Shown here: positions 20,959 to 42,016 of the stretch, in pieces | How positions within the stretch are numbered: the first letter of the stretch is position 1 | Layout of the letters: the number at the start of each line of letters is the position of its first letter | DNA from: an uncultured Desulfobulbaceae bacterium | GTDB taxonomy: Bacteria; Desulfobacterota; Desulfobulbia; Desulfobulbales; CALZHT01 | DNA: 48,266 nucleotides | Assembly (NCBI GenBank): GCA_945787445.1 | Contig: CALZHT010000080.1 | Span: 1 to 48,266 of the forward strand | Reading direction: 5' to 3' | The notes under the pieces: generated by a model | The model's input: the letters and a program-made list of their open reading frames with translations, nothing else | The model's database searches: none | What the model was told of the DNA's origin: nothing | Translations under genes and position numbers: made by a program

Positions 20959-21033
20959 GTTTCCAATTCGGAAACTGGCAATTTCGCAGATCGATGCAGA
21001 GATTCGGCAAAAAGGGCGTTTCCGGTTGGAAAC
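20959..21033. repeat. Two GTTTCC...GGAAAC hairpins
   Basis: Two short palindromes with the same arms, GTTTCC/GGAAAC (20959-20975 and 21018-21033), lie between the convergent lyase and ankyrin genes. They may serve as weak bidirectional terminators; neither has a clear T-run. Confidence 0.5.
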
Positions 21034-21674
21034 TAGTTTGCCCCGGCATTGCTCAGCAGATCAGCAATCTCGGGATTGGCCGCCTTGTCCAAGGCGGATT
21101 CGCCTTTGCTCGTCTGGGCATTGACAGCGGCGTTGTTCTGTAAAAGCTGGGTGACGATATCGGTGTAGCCGCGCATGGACGCATAAATAAGGGAGGTGAA
21201 GCCGTTATTGTCAGCCAGGTTAACATCAGCACCTTTTGTGATGAGCAGTGCGGCGGCTTCCGGTTTCTGGTCGTTGATGGCCACCATAAGAGCGGTTCTG
21301 CCCTGGTTGTCCTGGGCGTTCATGTCAGCGTTATTGTCTGTGAGAACGTTTATAATGTCGGCAGGAGCAGCCGGCAATATCGCGTAGGTCAGAGCAGTGC
21401 GGCCATCATTGTCCATGGCCTTAAGGTCTGCACCTCTTTGTACAAGAAGCTGGACAGTGGTCAGGTGGCCCAGGCCGGCTGCCCACATGAGGGGAGTGGT
21501 GCCGCTTCTGTCAGCGGAATTGATGTCAAGACCTTCAGTTAGATATTGGGCAACAAGTTCGTCGTTGCCCATGCTTGAAGCCTTGCAGAGCTTATTGATA
21601 TCCGCGTTGGTTGTCTGCGGTATTAGATAGACAAAGCACGCAATAAACAGAATACAAAGCGCTGTTTTTTTCAT
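21033..21674 (-). CDS. Secreted ankyrin-repeat protein (paralogue A)
   Basis: A 213-residue protein with a Sec signal peptide (cleavage likely after TTNA, residue 24) and five to six ankyrin repeats (for example GTTPLMWAAGLGHLTTVQLL, GRTALMVAIN, GFTSLIYASMRGYTDIVTQLL). It should be periplasmic or extracellular and act through protein-protein contacts. A near-identical paralogue (about 86% by hand alignment, same length) lies at 30575-31216. The pair brackets the giant cytochrome gene, both on the opposite strand. A strong Shine-Dalgarno (GGGAGGAG) precedes the ATG. Partnership with the cytochrome is inferred from position only. Confidence 0.92.
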   Translation of the reverse strand: MKKTALCILFIACFVYLIPQTTNADINKLCKASSMGNDELVAQYLTEGLDINSADRSGTTPLMWAAGLGHLTTVQLLVQRGADLKAMDNDGRTALTYAILPAAPADIINVLTDNNADMNAQDNQGRTALMVAINDQKPEAAALLITKGADVNLADNNGFTSLIYASMRGYTDIVTQLLQNNAAVNAQTSKGESALDKAANPEIADLLSNAGAN

Positions 21675-22307
21675 AACATTCTCCTCCCATTTGTTTACGT
21701 AACCACAAAAAGCATATCACCATCAATGGTAACTCTATATATCCAATCTGCCTTTGCGCAATGATTATTGTCAATTATTGAATACATTTATTTACAATAT
21801 AATTATAAATAATAATTTTAACCTTAAACGTTTTTCGAGGAAAAATCAAAACAAAATTGTTATTCGCCTTCTAAAACCAAGTGCGGACATGTATTCCTAT
21901 ATCCTTTTTATGGAGTACTTCAAGGTGTATCCCTCGCAACCCGTCCAGGTAAAGCGGTGATCCCTTTCCAGTGTCACCGTAAGGAGTTTCAAAAAATGTT
22001 CACTGCATGTCCCCCGGTCTACTTTTGACCATCATCCTCTCAAAAGCAAAAGAATAAGTATAAGAAATTTTTCTTTTCCTTTCACGGAATAGTGTCCTTA
22101 CAGTTTCTAAGTAATATTGTAAATCATAATGTAAATTATATTTAACATTTCTATTGTCAAATTAATGCACATATGGTATTCTGATTCTAACTATAATCTG
22201 GGTAAATTGTAGTTTTTTTAAGTGTTTTTAGTAACTTAAATAGTAATGCTTATAAAGCGCCTTAGGTTACGTTTTTAGGGCAGAAAAACAAAAAAAGGGG
22301 AAGGAAA
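21675..22307. promoter_or_regulatory. Long AT-rich upstream region of the giant cytochrome gene
   Basis: 633 bases between divergent genes with very low GC, and no convincing gene. A short stem CGGTGA/TCACCG sits at about 21955-21979. I looked for a cyclic-di-GMP (GEMM) riboswitch, which often precedes multihaem cytochrome genes in delta-proteobacteria, and did not recognise one. The cytochrome Shine-Dalgarno GGGGAAGG is at 22297-22304. Confidence 0.5.
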
Positions 22308-25300
22308 ATGGAAAAGTCTGGTTATATAACACTCAAATGGCGTCCGTATTCTGGATTATTCATCTTCTTACTGTTCATATCACTTGGATTTTTTCTACAA
22401 CTCTCCTCTCCTCAAACCGCTCATGCCCGGGCAGTGGAATGTGCTGCTTGCCACAGCTCAGGTGTCGGCTCCTCTCCCCATACCGTCCAGCATAATAATA
22501 CAATCGTTCCAGGTTCGGTATGCGGCCAGTGCCATGATGCCAATGTCCGCATTGAACATACGGACAACCGGGCAATTGATTGTGAACTCTGTCATACCCC
22601 TGACGGTCCCCTTTTCAATGCCCGTTATGATGCCGCAATTACCCAGGGAATGGGATCAGGCGGCACCAGCGTTGATTGTTGGCAGTGCCACGACTTTTTC
22701 AACCATCTCCCCCAGCACGACAATGTTTCCGCAACCCCTGCCCAATGTTCTTCATGCCATACAGCAAATATAACCGATACTCATAACAATAATTGCACCC
22801 TTTGCCATGAAAGCGCCAATACCATTGTTTCAGGCATTATTCAGCAAGGCAGAAGTGACGGCGGTAATCAGGCTGTAACCTGTGCCGGCTGCCATACAAG
22901 TGGCGGCGCCGCTAGCCATGGCGCAACCTGTGATACGGCCGGAGCGGCTCATGAAGCTTTGATCACCTCTGTTAATTGCTCAGGTTGCCACAATTCTGTT
23001 AATTTTGAGGCTCTGTGCAACACCCATCGCAGCGATTGTACAGTGTGCCATTTAAGCACTGAACAGCGCGTGGTTGATACGATCACCGCAGGCAGGGCAG
23101 GCACCCCGGTTTCTTGTGAGAACTGTCATGATATGCATAATGCCACAGCGGACCATAATATGCTGTCCACCTCGGTCAACTGTTCAACCTGTCATGCCAC
23201 GGGTGATTTTAATGCGATCTTGACCACCCACCGGTATGACTGTGCGCTATGCCATACCAGCACAAGAACGGACGTGGTCAACACCATCAATACTGGCAAG
23301 GGAGCTGCCGGCATCCCGGTGAACTGTGAAAACTGCCACACCGCCCATGACGGTCCGACCGCGCATAATAATCTCTCTACCTCGGTGAACTGTTCAACCT
23401 GTCATACCACCGGTGACTTCAACGCGATCTTGACTACCCACCAGGCAGATTGTACCGTATGCCATACCAGCACCCGTCAGGCGGTGATCGATACGATCAA
23501 TAGCGGTATTGCCGGCACTGCAGTGAACTGTGAAAACTGCCATACTGCCCATGACGGTCCGACAGACCATAACATGCTGTCCACTTCTACGAACTGCTCG
23601 ACTTGCCATGTCAGCGGCACATTCAACGATATCTCCAGCCTGCACCGAGCTGACTGTACCCTCTGCCATACCAGTACGCGTCAGGCAGTTATCGATGCCA
23701 TTGATGCGGGCAGGGCGGGCACTGCGGTAAATTGTGAGAACTGCCATGTCGGCCATGCTGATCCGGCAGGTGATCATAATAATGTGTCCGCCGCGGTGAA
23801 CTGTTCAACCTGTCATACCACCGGGGACTTTAATGCAATCCTGACCACCCACCGGTCCGATTGTGCATTGTGCCACAGCAGCACCAGACAGGCGGTCATT
23901 GATACAATCAACACAGGTCAAGGCGCCGGCGGTGTTCCGGTAAACTGTGAAAACTGCCACACCGCCCATGAAGGTGAAACAGACCACGATATGCTGTCCA
24001 CCTCGGTGAACTGCTCGACCTGTCATACCACCGGGGACTTTAATGCAATCCTGACCACCCATCAGGCCGACTGCACCTTGTGTCATACCAATACACGCCA
24101 GGCGGTCATCGAAACCATCAACGACGGCAAGGCCGGTACCCCGGTGAATTGCGAAAATTGCCACGCTCCCCATGACGGGCCGGCAATCCATGAAAATTTG
24201 AGCACATCCGCCAACTGCTCGAGCTGTCATTTCACCAATACGTTCGATATGATACTCGGCACTCATATGTCGGATTGTACCCTGTGTCATAGCAGCACCA
24301 GGCCGGAAGTTGTTCAGGCGATCAACGATGGCAGGGCCGGCACCGCAGTTAACTGCGAAAGCTGCCATCTCGGCCATGCTGCCGACCACGATATGCTGTC
24401 CACCTCGGCAAACTGCTCAACCTGTCATACCAGTACTTCATTTGACGATATTTATACGGTGCACCGGACTGACTGCGCAACGTGTCACAGCAGCACCGTT
24501 CCACGGATCAGTGATACAATCGCTGCCGGAATGGCCGGCACTGCGGTAAATTGCGAGAACTGTCATGATTCACACGACGGTCCGACAGATCACAACAGCC
24601 TGAGCACGTCCGTAAACTGCTCAACCTGTCACGCTACCGCTGATTTCAATGCGATCCTGACCACCCATCAGGCCGACTGTACCTTGTGCCACAGCAGCAC
24701 CCGCCAGGCGGTAATCGACACCATTGATGCCGGCAGGGCAGGGACGTCGGTAAACTGCGAGAACTGCCATACAGCCCATGACGGCGCCACGGATCATGAT
24801 ATGGTGAGCACATCTGCGAACTGTTCGACCTGCCATGTCAGCGGTACCTTTGATGAAATTCTCACTACCCATCTGTTGGATTGTACAGTGTGCCACACCA
24901 GCACCCGCCAGGTGGTAATCGATACCATCGATGCCGGCAGGGTAGGTACGCCAGTAAACTGTGAGAACTGCCATACCACCCATGACGGCACTGCGGATCA
25001 TGATATGTTGAGCGCATCTGCAAACTGCTCGACCTGTCATGTCACCGGTACCTTTGACGAAATACTTACCACCCATCAGGCCGACTGCACGCTCTGCCAT
25101 ACCAGTACAAGACAGGCGGTGATCGATACGATCGATGCCGGCAAGGCCGGTACGCCGGTGAACTGTGAGGGCTGCCATAGTACGCATGATGAAATCGCAG
25201 CCCATAATAACCTGTCCACCACAACGCCATGTTTAGGCTGCCATTTCACCGGTTCGTTCTCCTTCATTAAGTCTGTGCATCTCAATGACTGTGCGAAGTG

Positions 25301-28300
25301 CCACGTGCCGACGTCAACGGATTCGTTGCTTGTCACCAATACCCTTGCCACCATTGACCTTGGCAAAACCAACGGAGATAACCAGCCGGTGAACTGCCGC
25401 GATTGCCATGGCGGCGGTCATGAAAACGATCACGATAATCTTGAGACCTCGGTGAATTGTTCCGAGTGCCATGTCAGCACCAACTTTTCAGAGATCCTCA
25501 CCCTGCATGTGAATGATTGTCAGATCTGCCATAGCAGCCCGAGATCGGAAGTGCAGGATGCAATCGGTAATGGCGCCGGTCTCGCCGGTGTGATGCAGAA
25601 TTGCGAGAACTGCCATGTTCCCCACGGCACCGACCACGATATGCTGTCCACCTCACCGAATTGCTCAACTTGCCATGTCAGCGGAACTATTGATGATATC
25701 TATGCACTGCATCTCAATGACTGTGGGACCTGTCACAGCAGCCCGAGGACGGATGTTGATCAGACCATCAGCAATGGTATGGCCGGCACCCCGGTGAACT
25801 GTGAGAACTGCCATAGCGGCCATGGTCCGACTGATCACGATAATCTGCGCACATCAACGAACTGTTCGAGTTGTCACACCAGCGGTACATTTGATGCAAT
25901 CTTGACGACCCATCTGAGTGATTGTGCGACCTGCCATAACAGTACGAGATCTGATGTCATGGCCACTATCGATCTTGGTAAGTCTGCCGGCGGCAACCTG
26001 CCGGTGGATTGTGAGAACTGCCATACCGGTCATGTTGATCCGGCAGGTGATCACAATATGTTGACCACCTCGATAAACTGTTCAAATTGCCATGTCAGCG
26101 ATTCGTTCAATGAGATTCTGAGCCTGCATATTTCAGACTGTGCGCTTTGCCACTCCAGCCCCAGGCCTGAAGTTGCCCAGGCCATCAGCAACGGCAGGGC
26201 CGGCACTCCGGTGAACTGCGAGAACTGTCATGTTGGTCATGCCGCCGATCATGATATGTTGAGCAATTCTCCCAATTGTTCGCCGTGCCATACCGCTGGC
26301 CTGTTTGACGATATCTATGCAACCCATCAAAACAACTGTGCACTATGCCACAGCAGCACAGCAACAGAAATTGTCCAGACTATCGCAGACGGCATGGGCG
26401 GGACCGCGGTGAATTGCGAGAATTGCCATGGCGTATTAAGTATAGTGCATGATGGTCCGGCTCTTCATAATAACCTGAATGGTGCGCAAACATGTTCTGT
26501 CTGCCATACGGATTTTATTAACGGTACGACTTTTGATTATATTCATTCAACCCATCCACCATTACCGACCTTGGGTGGCACTCCGGTAGAAAGATGCGCA
26601 ACATGCCACAACAGCACGCGTCCGGAAGTTATCAATGCCATTGCTCAAGCACGAGGTCCAGCAGGTATTCCGGTCGATTGTGAGTCTTGCCATGTGAGCC
26701 AGCATATTGAGATTTCCAATCCGAGCCGATTGCATATAGGTACTATCTGGGTGAACACCGGTTCGAGTTGCGGATTGTGCCATATCGAGCAAAACAGAAC
26801 GCACACCGACATGAGTACATCATCCAATTGCTCTGCATGTCATACGAGCACCAACCAGGATGAAATCAACACCTTACACCATAATGACTGCCTGCTCTGT
26901 CATATGAGTGCACGGACTGACGTCCTCTCTGCTATCTCAACCGGTATTGCAGGCACGCCGGTGAATTGTGAGAATTGCCATGGCGGCCATGCCGATCCGG
27001 TTAGCGACCACGACATGCTGAGTACATCCGGCAACTGTTCGAGCTGCCATACGTCAGGCACATTTGATGAAATCCAGACTACGCACCAAAGCAACTGTGC
27101 ATTATGTCATAGCAGCACCAGACAGGCGGTTATTGATACAATTGCTGCCGGCATTAGCGACACTGCGGTGGATTGTAACGGCTGCCATGCGCCGCATAGC
27201 TTTGATACCCACCAGATCAGTGAAAACACAGGTTGCGACTCCTGTCATACCGTTTTAAATGGCACCCTGGCTTCTATTGAGACCATCCATGATGTGCCCA
27301 CTAACGGTACCGGTTCCTGCGCAACCTGTCATAGCAGCACACGACCTGATGTTACGGCAGCCATTGCTGCCGGACAGCCGGTGGATTGTTCCGCCTGCCA
27401 TGTCGGTCATGAAGGCCCGACAGATCATAACAAATTGAGTACTTCAACAAATTGCTCAGGCTGTCATAGCAGTGGTGAATTCAATGCCATCTATGCATTG
27501 CATCTCAACAACTGCGCGACTTGTCATGGCAGTATAAGAACAAATGTGATAAACACCATCAGTGCCGGGTCTGGTCCTGCCGGCGTGCCGGTAAATTGTG
27601 ATAATTGTCATGCCGGTCATACAGACCCAGCAGGTGATCATAATGCCCTGAATACATCATCCAACTGTTCGAGCTGTCACAGCAGTGGCGATTTCAATGC
27701 CATCTATGGTTTGCATCTCAGCAACTGTGCGACCTGCCACAGCAGCACGCGGACGGATGTAATCAACACTATTAATGCCGGTTCCGGCGGTATTGCGGTA
27801 AATTGTGAGAATTGTCATACCGGTCATACCGACCCGGCAGGTGATCATAATAGTTTGAGTACCTCATCGAACTGTTCAAGCTGTCATAGCAGCAGTAATT
27901 TCAATGCCATCTCCAGTCTGCATAGATCAGACTGTGGTTTATGTCATTCCAGCACCCGCCAGGCAGTGATCGACACTATCGCAGCCGGAAGCTCCGGCAC
28001 AGCGGTGGATTGCGAGGATTGCCATACAGGGCATGACGGAGCGGCAGACCATGATAGGCTGAGCACCACAACCCCGTGCTCGGATTGCCATGCAGGTAGT
28101 AATTTTGATGCCATCCTGACTATGCATGTGAATAGCTGTTCCACTTGTCACAGCAGTTCGCGTCAGGAAGTCATTGACACGATCAGTGCAGGCATGGGTG
28201 GAATAGCGGTGAATTGTCAGAGTTGTCACGGCGCCGGCTCGGAAGAGGCCCATCACGGCGGCAGTGAGGCACGATCAGGTAATTGTACCTGGTGCCATAA

Positions 28301-30068
28301 CGATCCACGGTCGGTATGGAGCTCCGCAACACCGGGAGACAACGGCAGCAATGAACCACTACCGACTCAGTTGGCCTGTGCCGAATGTCATGTGCGGGTT
28401 TCCGGGCCAAGCGGCAACCATACCATTGAAATCGAACGTATCGATTATTACGGCGACTACAGCCGAGCGCCGAACCGGAGCGTGGTGCATTCCCTGAGCG
28501 GCATGGCCATCGATTATATCTATAACTACGGCATGTGCTTTGACTGTCATAACGGCAGCGATGCTGCCGCTGTCCCGCCGTTCCATGCCAAACCGTCTTT
28601 CCCGGCCAATCACCAAACTTGGGGTTGTGTTGACGCACGATATGCACCGGGCCGCGGTACCTTTAACCACTTCTGGAGCGAGTTCAATGCCGACCAGGAT
28701 TCCGGGCCGGACAGCGAAAGTTACCGATCCTGCGAAAACGAGAGTAGACAATATCGCGATCCTGAACCAGGCTATGGATATATGATAAATATCCCCTGTA
28801 TTGCTGAGAACGGCTGCAGTGGCAGCAGCACCATCGCAGTGCCTGTTCTTGCCGCCATGCCGGAGCCTGCCGGCGGCGGTGAACCGCCTCCACCACCACC
28901 AAGCGGCGGTGGCTGTGACGTCGATCCAAACGGCACCTATGTTGAGGCCGAAGACTACAATGTATTCGGCACCAACTTTACCGAGCAATCCGGTGACGGC
29001 AACGGCGGCATGTATCTCTATGCCACTGCCAACAGTACCTCTTCACCATCGGGCTCACCGGTAGAATATGACCTGAACTTCACCGAGACCGGCACCTATT
29101 ACATCTGGTTCCGCGGCAAGGACAATGGCAGTACCGGCGACAATTCCCTCTGGTATGGTATTGACGGTTCCATGGTCGGGAACGCCACAACACCGGCATC
29201 CAACAGTAACTGGAACTGGACAAGTATGCCTCATAATACCGGTCCGAATCCAACCAGAATAATCGTTAACAGCACCGGCACCCATACCATTACCATATGG
29301 GCGCGGGAGAATGGTTTCCGGTTCGATGGCTTCTATCTCACCAACTCCAGCGGTTCCGTGTCCGGCAGCATTCCTTCAGGAGCATCTGTAGTTGATCCCA
29401 CCAACTGTGGCGGTTCCTCAACCGGCGGTTCCACATTTTCTGATTACCAACCAGACTGGAGTTCCGGCTCCATCAATGATGATTGGAATATCATTCGAGA
29501 TGGTTCTGATGCCTGGAGGATCAGCACAAGCCGTCTCTATTTTGGCGAGGGTTCTAGTGATTACGGCGACCCGCCCAGGATCTCATTGAGTTCGTCTGCA
29601 TTTGATCCATTCTCTGAGAACTATGATATCGTAGTTAATGCACGCATTTATGATGACGACGTCTGGGTTACTTACTTCTACATTGATGAAAACCTTACCC
29701 AGGGCTATGCTCTGATTCTTTCGGAAACCAAGAACAGCGGCATCTATGAATGCAACGACACCGGCAATGGCAGAATCGACCTCAATAGTCCATACAGCCA
29801 GGATTGCACACAACGGATATCGTTTACCCGACCTGCAGATAGAGGTGGCTCCGGTTCCGACTATACGGTCAACATCTCGGTGAGAACCGTTGGCGGCGAT
29901 GTGCAGATAACCGCGGGTTATGTCCAATCAGGCGGGAACAGCGACACCAATAATACTTACACCGATACTTCGCCGGTGCAGACTTACGGAACCATAGGCT
30001 TTGCCACCGGTTCCATGAATAGCGGTAACCAGAGCTATATGACGAACCTGGATGTGACCTTTCCTTAG
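22308..30068 (+). CDS. Giant secreted multihaem c-type cytochrome, 86 CxxCH motifs
   Basis: A 2586-residue protein. The Sec signal peptide (hydrophobic 18-31, cleavage near AHA at 40) is followed from Cys45 to about residue 2080 by 86 CxxCH haem-attachment motifs by hand count, one per about 24 residues. Six irregular haems come first. Then 25 tandem units of about 67 residues, mostly CENCH-CSTCH-CTLCH, each end in a helix-like STRQAVIDTI stretch. Four more irregular haems follow. Each unit also has about three non-motif His (TAH, TDH, TTH), as needed for bis-histidine ligation. After the last haem come a six-proline linker (about 2195), a CBM/GH115-C-like beta-sandwich (VEAEDYNVF to FDGFYLTNSSG) and a LamG/concanavalin-like domain to the end. 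Likely an extracellular electron conduit with surface- or polysaccharide-binding modules. GGGGAAGG precedes the ATG; a terminator follows. No porin or maturation genes are nearby. Confidence 0.93.
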   Translation: MEKSGYITLKWRPYSGLFIFLLFISLGFFLQLSSPQTAHARAVECAACHSSGVGSSPHTVQHNNTIVPGSVCGQCHDANVRIEHTDNRAIDCELCHTPDGPLFNARYDAAITQGMGSGGTSVDCWQCHDFFNHLPQHDNVSATPAQCSSCHTANITDTHNNNCTLCHESANTIVSGIIQQGRSDGGNQAVTCAGCHTSGGAASHGATCDTAGAAHEALITSVNCSGCHNSVNFEALCNTHRSDCTVCHLSTEQRVVDTITAGRAGTPVSCENCHDMHNATADHNMLSTSVNCSTCHATGDFNAILTTHRYDCALCHTSTRTDVVNTINTGKGAAGIPVNCENCHTAHDGPTAHNNLSTSVNCSTCHTTGDFNAILTTHQADCTVCHTSTRQAVIDTINSGIAGTAVNCENCHTAHDGPTDHNMLSTSTNCSTCHVSGTFNDISSLHRADCTLCHTSTRQAVIDAIDAGRAGTAVNCENCHVGHADPAGDHNNVSAAVNCSTCHTTGDFNAILTTHRSDCALCHSSTRQAVIDTINTGQGAGGVPVNCENCHTAHEGETDHDMLSTSVNCSTCHTTGDFNAILTTHQADCTLCHTNTRQAVIETINDGKAGTPVNCENCHAPHDGPAIHENLSTSANCSSCHFTNTFDMILGTHMSDCTLCHSSTRPEVVQAINDGRAGTAVNCESCHLGHAADHDMLSTSANCSTCHTSTSFDDIYTVHRTDCATCHSSTVPRISDTIAAGMAGTAVNCENCHDSHDGPTDHNSLSTSVNCSTCHATADFNAILTTHQADCTLCHSSTRQAVIDTIDAGRAGTSVNCENCHTAHDGATDHDMVSTSANCSTCHVSGTFDEILTTHLLDCTVCHTSTRQVVIDTIDAGRVGTPVNCENCHTTHDGTADHDMLSASANCSTCHVTGTFDEILTTHQADCTLCHTSTRQAVIDTIDAGKAGTPVNCEGCHSTHDEIAAHNNLSTTTPCLGCHFTGSFSFIKSVHLNDCAKCHVPTSTDSLLVTNTLATIDLGKTNGDNQPVNCRDCHGGGHENDHDNLETSVNCSECHVSTNFSEILTLHVNDCQICHSSPRSEVQDAIGNGAGLAGVMQNCENCHVPHGTDHDMLSTSPNCSTCHVSGTIDDIYALHLNDCGTCHSSPRTDVDQTISNGMAGTPVNCENCHSGHGPTDHDNLRTSTNCSSCHTSGTFDAILTTHLSDCATCHNSTRSDVMATIDLGKSAGGNLPVDCENCHTGHVDPAGDHNMLTTSINCSNCHVSDSFNEILSLHISDCALCHSSPRPEVAQAISNGRAGTPVNCENCHVGHAADHDMLSNSPNCSPCHTAGLFDDIYATHQNNCALCHSSTATEIVQTIADGMGGTAVNCENCHGVLSIVHDGPALHNNLNGAQTCSVCHTDFINGTTFDYIHSTHPPLPTLGGTPVERCATCHNSTRPEVINAIAQARGPAGIPVDCESCHVSQHIEISNPSRLHIGTIWVNTGSSCGLCHIEQNRTHTDMSTSSNCSACHTSTNQDEINTLHHNDCLLCHMSARTDVLSAISTGIAGTPVNCENCHGGHADPVSDHDMLSTSGNCSSCHTSGTFDEIQTTHQSNCALCHSSTRQAVIDTIAAGISDTAVDCNGCHAPHSFDTHQISENTGCDSCHTVLNGTLASIETIHDVPTNGTGSCATCHSSTRPDVTAAIAAGQPVDCSACHVGHEGPTDHNKLSTSTNCSGCHSSGEFNAIYALHLNNCATCHGSIRTNVINTISAGSGPAGVPVNCDNCHAGHTDPAGDHNALNTSSNCSSCHSSGDFNAIYGLHLSNCATCHSSTRTDVINTINAGSGGIAVNCENCHTGHTDPAGDHNSLSTSSNCSSCHSSSNFNAISSLHRSDCGLCHSSTRQAVIDTIAAGSSGTAVDCEDCHTGHDGAADHDRLSTTTPCSDCHAGSNFDAILTMHVNSCSTCHSSSRQEVIDTISAGMGGIAVNCQSCHGAGSEEAHHGGSEARSGNCTWCHNDPRSVWSSATPGDNGSNEPLPTQLACAECHVRVSGPSGNHTIEIERIDYYGDYSRAPNRSVVHSLSGMAIDYIYNYGMCFDCHNGSDAAAVPPFHAKPSFPANHQTWGCVDARYAPGRGTFNHFWSEFNADQDSGPDSESYRSCENESRQYRDPEPGYGYMINIPCIAENGCSGSSTIAVPVLAAMPEPAGGGEPPPPPPSGGGCDVDPNGTYVEAEDYNVFGTNFTEQSGDGNGGMYLYATANSTSSPSGSPVEYDLNFTETGTYYIWFRGKDNGSTGDNSLWYGIDGSMVGNATTPASNSNWNWTSMPHNTGPNPTRIIVNSTGTHTITIWARENGFRFDGFYLTNSSGSVSGSIPSGASVVDPTNCGGSSTGGSTFSDYQPDWSSGSINDDWNIIRDGSDAWRISTSRLYFGEGSSDYGDPPRISLSSSAFDPFSENYDIVVNARIYDDDVWVTYFYIDENLTQGYALILSETKNSGIYECNDTGNGRIDLNSPYSQDCTQRISFTRPADRGGSGSDYTVNISVRTVGGDVQITAGYVQSGGNSDTNNTYTDTSPVQTYGTIGFATGSMNSGNQSYMTNLDVTFP
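22881..28212 (+). repeat. Tandem ~200-bp triheme-encoding repeats (25 units)
   Basis: Coding tandem repeats inside the cytochrome gene with a period of about 200-210 bp. 24 units encode three haems each and one (around 26,680-26,910) encodes four. Some units share identical stretches of 40 or more bases (for instance around 23,810 and 24,018), suggesting recent duplication or gene conversion. Confidence 0.9.
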
Positions 30069-30097
30069 CATCAGGTAACTTTTAAAATATAAACATA

Positions 30098-30128
30098 AAA
30101 GGGCGGCCTCTGTGCCGTCCTTTTTTTT
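30098..30128 (+). terminator. Rho-independent terminator of the cytochrome gene
   Basis: A 7-bp GC-rich stem GGGCGGC/GCCGTCC (one G-U pair) with a 6-base loop is followed by eight T residues, 30-60 bases after the stop codon. Confidence 0.88.
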
Positions 30129-30574: not shown

Positions 30575-31216
30575 TCAGTTGGCCCCGGCGTTCCGCAGCA
30601 GATCAGCGGTTTCGGGGTTAGCGGCCTTGTCCAATGCGGATTTGCCGTTACTTGTCTGGGAATTGACATCAGCGTTGTTCTGCAGAAGCTGGGTGACAAT
30701 ATCGGTATAACCCCGCATGGATGCATGGATAAGGGAAGTGGAGCCGTTGTTGTCAGCCAGATTGACATCAGCACCTATGGTGATAAGCAGTGCAGCGGCT
30801 TCCGGTTTCATGTCGTTGATGGCCACCATAAGAGCGGTTCTGCCCTGGTTGTCCTGGGCGTCGATTTCAGCGTTATTATCAATGAGAACGTTTATGATAT
30901 CGGTAGTGTTAACCGGCATCACTGCGTAGGTCAGAGCAGTGCGGCCGTCATTGTCAATTGCATTAAGGTCTGCTCCGCGCTGCACTAGAAGCTGGACAGT
31001 GGTCAGGTGGCCTTGGCCGGCAGCCCACATAAGGGGAGTAGTGCCGCTTCTATCAGCGGAATTGATGTCAAGGCCTTCAGTGAGATACTGAGCAACAAGT
31101 TCGTCGTTGCCCATGCTTGCAGCTTTGCAGAGCTTGTTGATCTCCGCGTTGCCTGTCTGAGGCATCAGATAGACAAAACACGCCAAAAACAGAATGGATA
31201 GTGCTACCTTTTTCAT
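30575..31216 (-). CDS. Secreted ankyrin-repeat protein (paralogue B)
   Basis: Same length (213 residues) and architecture as the protein at 21033-21674: a Sec signal peptide (likely cleavage after TGNA) followed by ankyrin repeats. I count about 30 differences between the two; the N-terminal repeats are nearly invariant, and most changes fall in the third repeat (PVNTT versus PAAPA) and at the C-terminal end. A strong Shine-Dalgarno (AGAGGAG) and a clear terminator mark it as a single-gene unit. It and its twin flank the 7.8-kb cytochrome gene in the same orientation, opposite to that gene. Confidence 0.92.
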   Translation of the reverse strand: MKKVALSILFLACFVYLMPQTGNAEINKLCKAASMGNDELVAQYLTEGLDINSADRSGTTPLMWAAGQGHLTTVQLLVQRGADLNAIDNDGRTALTYAVMPVNTTDIINVLIDNNAEIDAQDNQGRTALMVAINDMKPEAAALLITIGADVNLADNNGSTSLIHASMRGYTDIVTQLLQNNADVNSQTSNGKSALDKAANPETADLLRNAGAN

Positions 31217-31525: not shown

Positions 31526-32182
31526 TCAAAGGGATAAAGCGCTTTTCATAGCATCGATACCGGTCCTTTCAATAAACCGTGCGGTTCTTTCCCGCTTCTT
31601 GCCATTGTCCCGGTAGTATTCCAGGCAGCGTTTGACCAGGTCTATTACTTCCTCTTTACTGAGCTTTTCAGCCAGGATGTCTCCGATCCTTGGTTTCCCG
31701 CCGGAATTACCGCCAAAGGCCATGATCCAGCCCTTTTTCTTGCCGATCACGCCCACATCACGGAGATAGCTTTCTCCGCAACAAAAAGGACAGCCGGACA
31801 CTCCCATCTTTACCTTGGCAGGAAGCTCCATTTCATTGAAAAATTTCTCAAGTTCCATGCCCAGCCCCAAGGAATCCTGCATGCCGTAGCGGCATACCGC
31901 AGTTCCAGGGCAGGCCTGCACATAATGGACGCACAATTCAACGGCCCTGCCCACGTCCATTTTCAGATCATGCCAGATCGGGTCTACATCTTCAGGTTTA
32001 ATGCCGACCAGCGCCAACCTGTGGCCCGATGTTATTTTCATTATGGGGATGTTGTACTTCCGCACCACCTTGGTTATTGATTCGAAAACTTCCGGTGAGA
32101 CCAGACCGACCGGGGTACGAGGTACTATGGCGTATGTTTTTTTGTCGCGCTGGAGAATGGCTCCCCTTGGTTCGTCTGACAT
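31526..32182 (-). CDS. Assimilatory-type (low-molecular-weight) siroheme sulfite reductase
   Basis: A 218-residue single-subunit sulfite/nitrite reductase-like protein: an N-terminal ferredoxin-like half (PRTPVGLVSPEVFESI) and a siroheme/[4Fe-4S] half. The cluster Cys pattern is Cys91-x5-Cys97 (ACPGTAVCRYG) and Cys131-x3-Cys135 (GCPFCC). Size and motifs match the small assimilatory-type sulfite reductase known from Desulfovibrio-like sulfate reducers, which reduces sulfite to sulfide by six electrons. GGAG lies upstream of the ATG. A stand-alone gene; electron donor unknown. It is one of the best clues to the host lineage. Confidence 0.88.
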   Translation of the reverse strand: MSDEPRGAILQRDKKTYAIVPRTPVGLVSPEVFESITKVVRKYNIPIMKITSGHRLALVGIKPEDVDPIWHDLKMDVGRAVELCVHYVQACPGTAVCRYGMQDSLGLGMELEKFFNEMELPAKVKMGVSGCPFCCGESYLRDVGVIGKKKGWIMAFGGNSGGKPRIGDILAEKLSKEEVIDLVKRCLEYYRDNGKKRERTARFIERTGIDAMKSALSL

Positions 32183-39659: not shown

Positions 39660-39947
39660 ATGAGGCACAACGTTTCATCTTTGAAAAAGTCAACCGCTAC
39701 CTTTGTTTATATCGGGATTTTGATAATCTTTGTTGTTTCTTTCCTTGAGAGTTGCGCTGCACCCAACCTTAATCTTTCCCTTAAGGCTCCATTGGAATTT
39801 TCTGAAAGTGTCAGCAATCCGACCGTACCCTTGGTAGTGGGAATGGACAACTTTGTCGACCTCAGGCCGCAGGCAAGGGGGAGTGATAATCAGAAGTGGA
39901 AAGGACGTAATCCGGGAATGGAAACTATCCTTAGACAGTACTTGTAA
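39660..39947 (+). CDS. Putative lipoprotein, possibly truncated
   Basis: A 95-residue protein with an N-terminal hydrophobic segment and a lipobox-like FLESC (Cys32). Not recognised beyond that. It ends at a TAA directly followed, in the same frame, by the ketosynthase-like gene, and no Shine-Dalgarno is obvious before the ATG. The segment VDLRPQARGSDNQKWKG looks like the middle of a longer lipoprotein, so a deletion that removed its C-terminus is possible. Confidence 0.5.
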   Translation: MRHNVSSLKKSTATFVYIGILIIFVVSFLESCAAPNLNLSLKAPLEFSESVSNPTVPLVVGMDNFVDLRPQARGSDNQKWKGRNPGMETILRQYL

Positions 39948-40484
39948 GTGTCTATTATGCATGACAATACTTACCTGCAGTCTGATATCATTGGCGATGC
40001 TATCCTGGCTATTCTGGGAACTGTACCTAAAAGATGGGGGAGGATGGACCAGGCGAGCAGGCTTGCCGTGGTGGAGGTGGGCCGCTCCCTTAGAGTCGCA
40101 GGCTTGATAAACCACGTACGGTGCAAGATCGATGATGATAAGATAATAGGGCTTATCGGTGGGACCAGGCGCGGTTCCCTGGCCACTGACCTTGCCTATG
40201 GTGAAACGTATGCCCAGGGACTGGATATGGCGAGTCCTGTTTTTTTCAGTTATACTCTGGCAAACATCGCTCTTGCTGAAGCGGCCAGCCACTATGGCCT
40301 TACCGGCCCAGTATATTCGGTATATCATGAAAATCCTTTTGAAGAAGCTGCAGCAGAGGCAAAACGTTGGCTGGCCGGCGATTCCCAGCTTTATGCCATG
40401 CTGGCAGGGGAACTGGACTTTGTACCCACGAATGTTGCCGGTGGTCCGGTTGTTTCCGCCTTTTTTGAGGTTGTAAAGCAATGA
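39948..40484 (+). CDS. Short beta-ketoacyl synthase-like protein (no nucleophile)
   Basis: A 178-residue protein resembling the N-terminal half of ketosynthases, as seen in small chain-length-factor-like proteins of aryl-polyene-type clusters: WGRMDQASRLAVVEVGRSL, IIGLIGGTRRGSLATD, and SPVFFSYTLANIALAEAAS. No Cys sits at the active-site position (SVYHENP region), so it is probably a non-catalytic partner. The start may be GTG 39948 or ATG 39957. It belongs to the acyl-lipid cluster that follows. Confidence 0.7.
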   Translation: MSIMHDNTYLQSDIIGDAILAILGTVPKRWGRMDQASRLAVVEVGRSLRVAGLINHVRCKIDDDKIIGLIGGTRRGSLATDLAYGETYAQGLDMASPVFFSYTLANIALAEAASHYGLTGPVYSVYHENPFEEAAAEAKRWLAGDSQLYAMLAGELDFVPTNVAGGPVVSAFFEVVKQ

Positions 40485-40738
40485 ATTGCCCCGCGGTCCC
40501 ATAGCAGCAGTATATACACCTCCCTCCTACAAGCTGGGGAGGGGGGTGATCCTTAAATAGAGAAGAGAAAGATTTCGTTACGAAAAAGCCTTAACATCTG
40601 GGGGACTGGTTCGATGCAGAAACCACGGTCTTGGCAATCAGAATGGACCAAAAAACCGGTGTCCAGTCAGGCAAATTCCTCACAAACAGTATATTGTCCA
40701 GGACAGGTTTTGATGAGTACCTGTAAAGAAGGTTTCAT
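40485..40738 (+). other. Intergenic region with hairpin and a possible gene remnant
   Basis: A stem CCTCCC/GGGAGG (40519-40524 / 40537-40542) lacks a T-run. At about 40596-40712 a start-less frame (LGDWFDAETTVLAIRMDQK... ending in GFDEYL) looks protein-like but is not recognised; it may be a remnant of a deleted gene. The next gene's ribosome-binding site GAAGG is at about 40730. Confidence 0.35.
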
Positions 40739-42016
40739 ATGCCGAAAATTACCTTGATTTATCCAAAATGGCCCAAAATTCCCGAACAGACGGAGTTTCA
40801 TTTGCCGCCGCACGGGCCTGTATGTATGGCTGCAGCTTTTCCCGCGGAATACGACATTTGCTTTATCGATGAGAACGTTGATCCAATTGATTTTAATGGG
40901 GATACCGATCTTGTGGCTATTTCCATGATGCTCACCTGCCAGATTCCAAGGGGGCTTGAGATAGCTAAAAATTACCGGAACAAGGGGATAAAAGTTATTG
41001 CCGGCGGCATTGCCGTGATGCTCCATGCCGATGAGGTGGCAGCCCAGATGGACGCAATTTTTCTCGGAGAGGTCGAAGGAGGGCGTCTTGTCGAGGTGCT
41101 GAAGGATTGGCAGAAAAAACAGCTTAAGCCATGTTATGATTTCCTGCATGATTTTCCACCAATAGGGAGCGTGGGCCCGGCGCGCCGAGATATTCTCAAC
41201 CGCGAGCGCTATGTATACCGCGGGGTTCAAATGGTGGATTTGGTCCATGCCTCCCGGGGCTGTCGATTTAACTGTTTCCCCTGCGCCACCGCCTATCTCG
41301 GCGGCAGGATATTTCGTCCGCGGCCCATTGACCGGGTGGTTGAAGAAATCGCCGGTATTGACAACAATCGCCTCTTCCTGGTGGATAACTCCCTGGCCCA
41401 GGATCGGCAATGGGTGCTTGAGCTGTTCAAGAGCCTGAAACCGCTCAAGAAAAAATGGATAAGCCATCCCATTCTTGATGAGGAGGATGTGGTGGCAAAG
41501 GCTGCTGAAGCGGGTTGTTGGTATGTGTATCAGGCTGTGTTTGATACCTCGGACGTTATCCGTAACCGGGTAAAAAGACTCAAAGACCACGGCATCGGGG
41601 TTGAGGCCGCTGTATTGCTGGGGCCGGATAACCAGGATGGTGATTACATCAAGCGCCTCGTTGATTTTCTCCTTGAAATAGATGTGGACATGGCGGAGTT
41701 TTCCATACTCACCCCATTTCCGCATACCCCTGTCACCGTCCAGTATGAAAAGGAAGGGCGGATCCTTCATAAGGACTGGAGCCGTTACACAACGGCCGAG
41801 GTCTGTTTCAAACCGCAAAAAATGACGCCCGACAAGCTGCAGGAGATGTACCATTACGCCTGGGAAACTTTTTATAAAGACACCTCCCAGTCCCTGCGCA
41901 TGGCCCGTTTGTTTCATGCTGTTGTAAAAAAGGAAATCGCGGACAACACCTATAAAGCTTCACCGCGGCTTGCCGAGCGGCGCCGTGATTGGCAGTTGGG
42001 CCAGAGAGTCGGCTGA
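40739..42016 (+). CDS. Radical SAM enzyme with B12-binding-like N-terminus (first)
   Basis: A 425-residue enzyme. The N-terminal Rossmann-like domain (1-125) matches B12-binding radical SAM proteins, although no classical DxHxxG cobalamin-His motif is visible. The radical SAM barrel follows with CRFNCFPC (Cys175, Cys179, Cys182). Later segments such as EFSILTPFPHTPVTVQYEKEG are typical of the group. Such enzymes methylate, cyclise or rearrange unactivated carbons, here probably in an acyl-chain product. A second radical SAM gene follows with a 1-base overlap (TGATG). Ribosome-binding site GAAGG. Confidence 0.88.
   Translation: MPKITLIYPKWPKIPEQTEFHLPPHGPVCMAAAFPAEYDICFIDENVDPIDFNGDTDLVAISMMLTCQIPRGLEIAKNYRNKGIKVIAGGIAVMLHADEVAAQMDAIFLGEVEGGRLVEVLKDWQKKQLKPCYDFLHDFPPIGSVGPARRDILNRERYVYRGVQMVDLVHASRGCRFNCFPCATAYLGGRIFRPRPIDRVVEEIAGIDNNRLFLVDNSLAQDRQWVLELFKSLKPLKKKWISHPILDEEDVVAKAAEAGCWYVYQAVFDTSDVIRNRVKRLKDHGIGVEAAVLLGPDNQDGDYIKRLVDFLLEIDVDMAEFSILTPFPHTPVTVQYEKEGRILHKDWSRYTTAEVCFKPQKMTPDKLQEMYHYAWETFYKDTSQSLRMARLFHAVVKKEIADNTYKASPRLAERRRDWQLGQRVG

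Follow-up and report, generated by a model that had tools for sequence, protein, structure and literature searches.

The window analysed here, a stretch of 48,266 nucleotides from an uncultured Desulfobulbaceae bacterium, encodes a giant multihaem cytochrome of 2586 amino acids with 86 CxxCH motifs (22308..30068, + strand). We regard it as probable that this protein is secreted and attached to the cell surface, where its single chain would act in extracellular electron transfer as a conduit or capacitor. We infer a chain of about 27 cytochrome c7-like triheme modules, each with three CxxCH motifs and three further histidines, in which 86 bis-His haems would be strung along one polypeptide. Haem attachment would take place in the periplasm and rely on the cytochrome c maturation system, and export would probably follow the type II secretion system (T2SS). 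The C-terminal cap and beta-sandwich domains would probably anchor the chain to extracellular polysaccharide or the cell surface, and the chain would link the outer membrane to an external acceptor or partner by carrying or storing electrons.

The cytochrome gene and its repeat tract

A scripted count placed 86 CxxCH motifs in the 7761-nt frame, the first starting at residue 45 and the last at residue 2077, in exact agreement with the original prediction of 86 motifs between residues 45 and about 2080. The mean gap between adjacent motifs was 23.9 residues, which likewise matches the predicted one haem per about 24 residues. The sole stop codon is the terminal one. Every CH dipeptide falls within a CxxCH motif, and neither CxxC without a following H nor CX3-4CH variants were found in the protein. 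Shuffled versions of the protein (n = 2000) contained on average 0.88 motifs and at most 5. The predicted mass is ~267 kDa for the apoprotein and ~320 kDa with haem. With motifs far beyond chance and an export signal, the product is by its sequence a multihaem c-type cytochrome. Its genome encodes cytochrome assembly proteins, and a genome-wide search for CxxCH pairs gave 221 matches compared with 2 in the reversed control.

Expression signals were read directly from the sequence. A ribosome-binding site, GGGGAAGG, lies just 5' of the ATG (22297..22304, +), and residues 1-40 form a Sec signal peptide, MEKSGYITLKWRPYSGLFIFLLFISLGFFLQLSSPQTAHA, with a putative cleavage position (22308..22427, +). 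An intrinsic terminator-like hairpin with a T run follows downstream (30097..30124, +); overall site counts in the hairpin scan were close to chance, and this hairpin is set apart by its place 29 nt after the stop. Promoter-like matches upstream of the gene were no more frequent than expected by chance. Riboswitches upstream of cytochrome genes are known in Geobacter, and a search upstream of this gene found none. The gene looks monocistronic because the flanking genes both lie on the opposite strand.

We then considered whether the tract might have been expanded in assembly, or might be a decaying or non-functional array. The draft assembly consists of 227 contigs, and two paralogs in the same genome, on contigs C56 and C95, both stop at contig ends. 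The C95 paralog corresponds to the N-terminal portion of the gene, and the contig ends inside this copy (G000:C95, L044 11058-13188); its frame is broken, either by an 83-nt deletion or by an assembly error. Against such a reading, the gene lies 18-22 kb away from either contig end, and its repeat units are only 60-80% identical at the DNA level. Exact internal repeats were found at five positions at a length of 40 nt and at none at 50 nt, which is below what should mislead an assembler using ordinary short reads.

Comparison with the paralogs also revealed selection on the coding sequence. Within the first 722 residues, the C95 paralog is 82-89% identical in parts, and the C56 paralog is 81% identical over residues 1007-1308; dN/dS values were 0.138, 0.126 and 0.159. 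All 122 aligned haem-motif cysteines and histidines were kept, as were 42 of 42 aligned further histidines, and about one quarter of the aligned haem-motif codons carried a synonymous change. The cytochrome gene is real and under purifying selection. Because the units have diverged, exact repeats stay below 50 nt and dN/dS lies at 0.13-0.16, an assembly expansion of the repeat tract was rejected, and we give practically no credence to either an expanded or a decaying array. The original prediction of a real gene is thus borne out by the uninterrupted frame, the signal peptide, the ribosome-binding site, the terminator and the selection.

Triheme modules and family membership

The haem tract (residues 45-2081; 22440..28550, +) comprises 26 triheme modules and two four-haem segments. 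One of these segments is irregular, covers haems 61-64 (26679..26966, +) and has a counterpart in the C56 paralog; the second consists of haems 83-86. The main module is ~68 amino acids long with periodic CxxCH spacing, mostly 22-20-26. Its further histidines follow a 2-1-0 order after the three motifs, mostly at offsets 7 and 13 and then 16, and the 26 triheme modules obey this order with few exceptions. Before residue 2085 there are 89 non-proximal histidines for 86 motifs, and therefore a second histidine is possible for every haem. Methionine has no fixed place in the module alignment, and three non-proximal histidines per module would suffice for bis-His ligation. The longest gap between consecutive motifs is 35 residues through haem 85 and 53 residues between the last two.

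Read in a shifted register, the module has two histidines before one motif, one histidine 4 residues before the next, and a third motif without a further histidine. This appears to match the ligand order of triheme cytochromes c7, for which PpcA served as the reference. The 2-1-0 order was also present in Deltaproteobacteria bacterium RIFOXYD12_FULL_50_9, in a protein with 46 motifs, and in 36-, 54-, 59- and 79-motif proteins from other families of the order.

Profile searches pointed to the same kinship. The whole protein scored 293.1 bits against Pfam Cytochrom_c3_2 (cut-off 25) and 216.9 bits against Cytochrome_C7 (cut-off 24.8), the latter over 14 matched stretches. A module profile searched against the PDB retrieved MtrC, MtrF, OmcA and c7 sequences at E values of 5e-6 to 7e-3, with c7 at 0.007, and no OmcS, OmcZ or OmcE chain was among the best 60 of 106 matches. 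The Geobacter-type nanowire_3heme model of NCBIfam (TIGR04257) gave 18.1 bits for the whole protein against a cut-off of 40, with weak matches in 3 of 25 modules. Scores also stayed below the cut-off for the OmcA/MtrC decahaem model (TIGR03507; 19.9 against 209.3 bits) and for the DmsE/MtrA decahaem model (TIGR03508; 180.5 against 192.2 bits, across 10 stretches). An AlphaFold2 model of four modules from a seven-row alignment reached pLDDT 52.1 and pTM 0.25, which is too poor for haem spacing, and a Foldseek search with this low-confidence model returned no match.

Relatives, C-terminal domains and module number

Relatives were sought across 258 genomes of the order, which are the same 258 genomes that make up the class. 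The family is patchy, with a match at E 1e-10 or better in 17 of the 258. A scan of genome contigs yielded a single named relative, MGTA01000246.1. The relatives include a 79-motif protein in genome G035 and, in a sister family, a protein with at least 252 motifs in G020, a genome from this order that is 97% complete. In G020, one frame (C173:3-25424, minus strand; L032+L033) encodes at least 8474 amino acids with at least 252 CxxCH motifs and runs off the contig end. Another (C176; L034) is open at both ends and encodes 5696 amino acids with 173 motifs, and a complete frame (C22:8630-22045; L035+L036) encodes 4471 amino acids with 110 motifs and is followed by a second giant cytochrome with at least 66. 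The C173 and C176 paralogs share 70% amino-acid identity over 4967 codons, with 465 of 465 haem-motif residues kept, and neither contains an exact 40-nt repeat. The sister family is sparser, at ~33 amino acids per haem.

Between the C56 paralog and the window protein, modules could be paired individually. Modules 1-3 of C56 match window modules 15-17 at 80-91%, modules 6-7 match window modules 20-21, and modules 16-18 match window modules 24, 25 and 27, while the modules in between differ in number (2 against 8). Gain and loss of modules thus take place in the middle, and the ends stay the same.

Behind the tract, a C-terminal cap holds the last four haems and a conserved FHAKP...APGRGTFN stretch (28215..28877, +) and is common to relatives of several genera. 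It is followed by a GH115_C-like beta-sandwich (PF17829; 28905..29408, +), which scored 26.6 bits as an isolated domain against a cut-off of 24.1, and by a second haem-free region without a family match (29418..30065, +) that is probably all-beta, judging from the strands of a low-confidence model. The AlphaFold2 model of the C-terminus, at pLDDT 40.5, is too poor for structural measurement, and the profile of the GH115_C-like domain matched nothing in the PDB. The same domain stands behind the cap in the C56 paralog and in the G010 and G045 relatives; in G001 and G035 its place is taken by stretches that look IPT/TIG-like by eye. By sequence comparison, the haem-free domains behind the cap appear to be exchangeable between relatives. 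We noticed neither a membrane anchor nor a sorting signal in the window protein, and Pfam found in it none of the S-layer, peptidase M6-like or pectin-lyase-type domains of ANME MHC-A/B/C.

Adhesion-type C-terminal domains, together with a module number that varies freely among relatives, would also suit a mainly non-respiratory role, either as a haem or iron store or as an adhesin in which the haem modules act as a spacer. However, the strict conservation of the further histidine positions would be unneeded for storage or spacing, and we consider such a role unlikely compared with electron transfer.

Genomic setting, localisation and known systems

In the window, the neighbours of the cytochrome gene encode a MacAB-TolC type exporter, a CRS1_YhbY protein, a PEP-mutase-like protein and methyltransferases; no electron-transfer, porin or secretion gene adjoins it. 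The gene is flanked by two exported ankyrin-repeat proteins that are 86% identical to each other (upstream, 21033..21674, -; downstream, 30575..31216, -), whose link to the cytochrome is uncertain. An ankyrin gene also lies directly downstream of a 64-motif relative (G020 C133). Also among the neighbours, 31526-32182 encodes a short NIR_SIR protein (218 aa) with both nitrite/sulfite reductase domains. Elsewhere in the window, two frames are without a Pfam match (39690-40502 and 40667-41917), the second overlapping an opposite-strand 425-aa frame at 40739-42016. In another part of the same genome, two 508-aa frames with 11 CxxCH motifs each lie near a molybdopterin oxidoreductase gene (L110 1197-2723 and 10888-12414).

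The loci of relatives offered more information on export. In G045 and G035, from two genera of a single family of the order, the orthologous cytochrome genes have a GspD secretin on one side and a CarboxypepD_reg/beta-helix protein on the other (L085, L040), and genes of the T2SS K, pseudopilin and PilN/PilO types are located upstream in these loci; G045 carries two cytochromes in tandem (54 + 36 motifs) and G035 a single one of 79. The CarboxypepD_reg neighbour is retained in G001. While gspD adjoins the cytochrome gene in these two relatives and not in the window, the window's genome holds a 57% identical secretin in a like-ordered T2SS cluster on contig C5, and CarboxypepD_reg/beta-helix homologues on contig C56, ~9-18 kb from the paralog there. 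The T2SS neighbourhood of relatives is the main support for secretion, and export is probably by this system.

A signal peptide by itself places the protein no further than the periplasm, where the chain could act as an electron capacitor inside the outer membrane that buffers electrons once external acceptors are exhausted. This location retains some weight because proteins of the GSU1996 type, which share the triheme-repeat architecture, are periplasmic and seen as electron capacitors (PMC10138318), and it would agree with the lack of an adjoining porin or secretion gene in the window. The surface-type C-terminal beta domains, GH115_C-like and others, and the T2SS neighbourhood in relatives argue against it, and we judge the periplasmic reading improbable, though not negligible, beside that of a secreted, surface-attached chain.

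The original prediction also proposed a continuous haem wire in a single chain rather than one made by polymerisation. The three haems and three further histidines per module, the spacing of at most 35 residues to haem 85 and the Pfam c7 homology lend this indirect support. Single-chain triheme-repeat wires are already known. GSU1996 has 12 haems in a single chain of repeated triheme c7-like domains; its solved structure shows a linear haem chain in which haem edges lie 3-5 angstrom apart. GSU2210 carries 27 haems (PMC10138318). Both resemble the window protein in joining many haems in one polypeptide; they differ in carrying 12 or 27 haems instead of 86, in being periplasmic and in having no described surface domains, and GSU1996 has one His-Met haem per domain where the window protein has three further histidines per module. 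The OmcS, OmcZ and OmcE filaments of Geobacter similarly direct haem chains outward, but have 4-8 haems per subunit and are built by polymerisation.

As predicted, the protein is among the very largest multihaem cytochromes, but it sets no record. A Methanoperedens Mn-2 protein with 113 haems was the largest reported in 2020 (PMC7327174), and no published count above 113 was found in the open-licence literature. Proteins with 86 haems are described from ANME-2c ERB4 (PMC9012536) and from Desulfuromonas acetexigens, where expression occurs with an electrode or iron oxide as acceptor (PMC12133095). The D. acetexigens protein, compared by description only, has an equal motif number and comes from what was formerly the same class. 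The ANME giants are likewise very large and single-chain, and several are joined to surface or adhesion domains; unlike the window protein they are archaeal, with S-layer or pectin-lyase domains where it has the cap and the GH115_C-like domain. Since the GSU1996 and GSU2210 wires and the 86- and 113-haem proteins are published, the window protein is, as far as its sequence tells, a large new variant of an already known single-chain multihaem type and not a new kind.

Taken together, these comparisons allow the tentative proposal, which may well prove wrong, that this Desulfobacterota lineage makes single-polypeptide wires of tunable length, in which the start and the cap stay fixed and triheme modules are added or lost in between (the compact family shows 36, 46, 54, 59, 79 and 86 motifs, the sister family at least 252). 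Each would be covalent and non-polymerised and could extend outward from the cell by tens of nanometres. Haems in OmcS or GSU1996 stack ~0.7-1 nm apart; if those of the window protein were stacked in one line at this distance, the chain could span 60-90 nm, and it could equally fold back. The dispute over how bacteria transport electrons beyond the outer membrane is one among polymerised filaments, pili and loose cytochromes. With haem number set by module number, the ends conserved and the length varying among relatives, natural variants would offer a direct test of length against conductance. If confirmed, the 252-motif relative would have more than double the highest haem count that we found published for a single polypeptide, and would pose the problem of how a cell can load one chain with that much haem.
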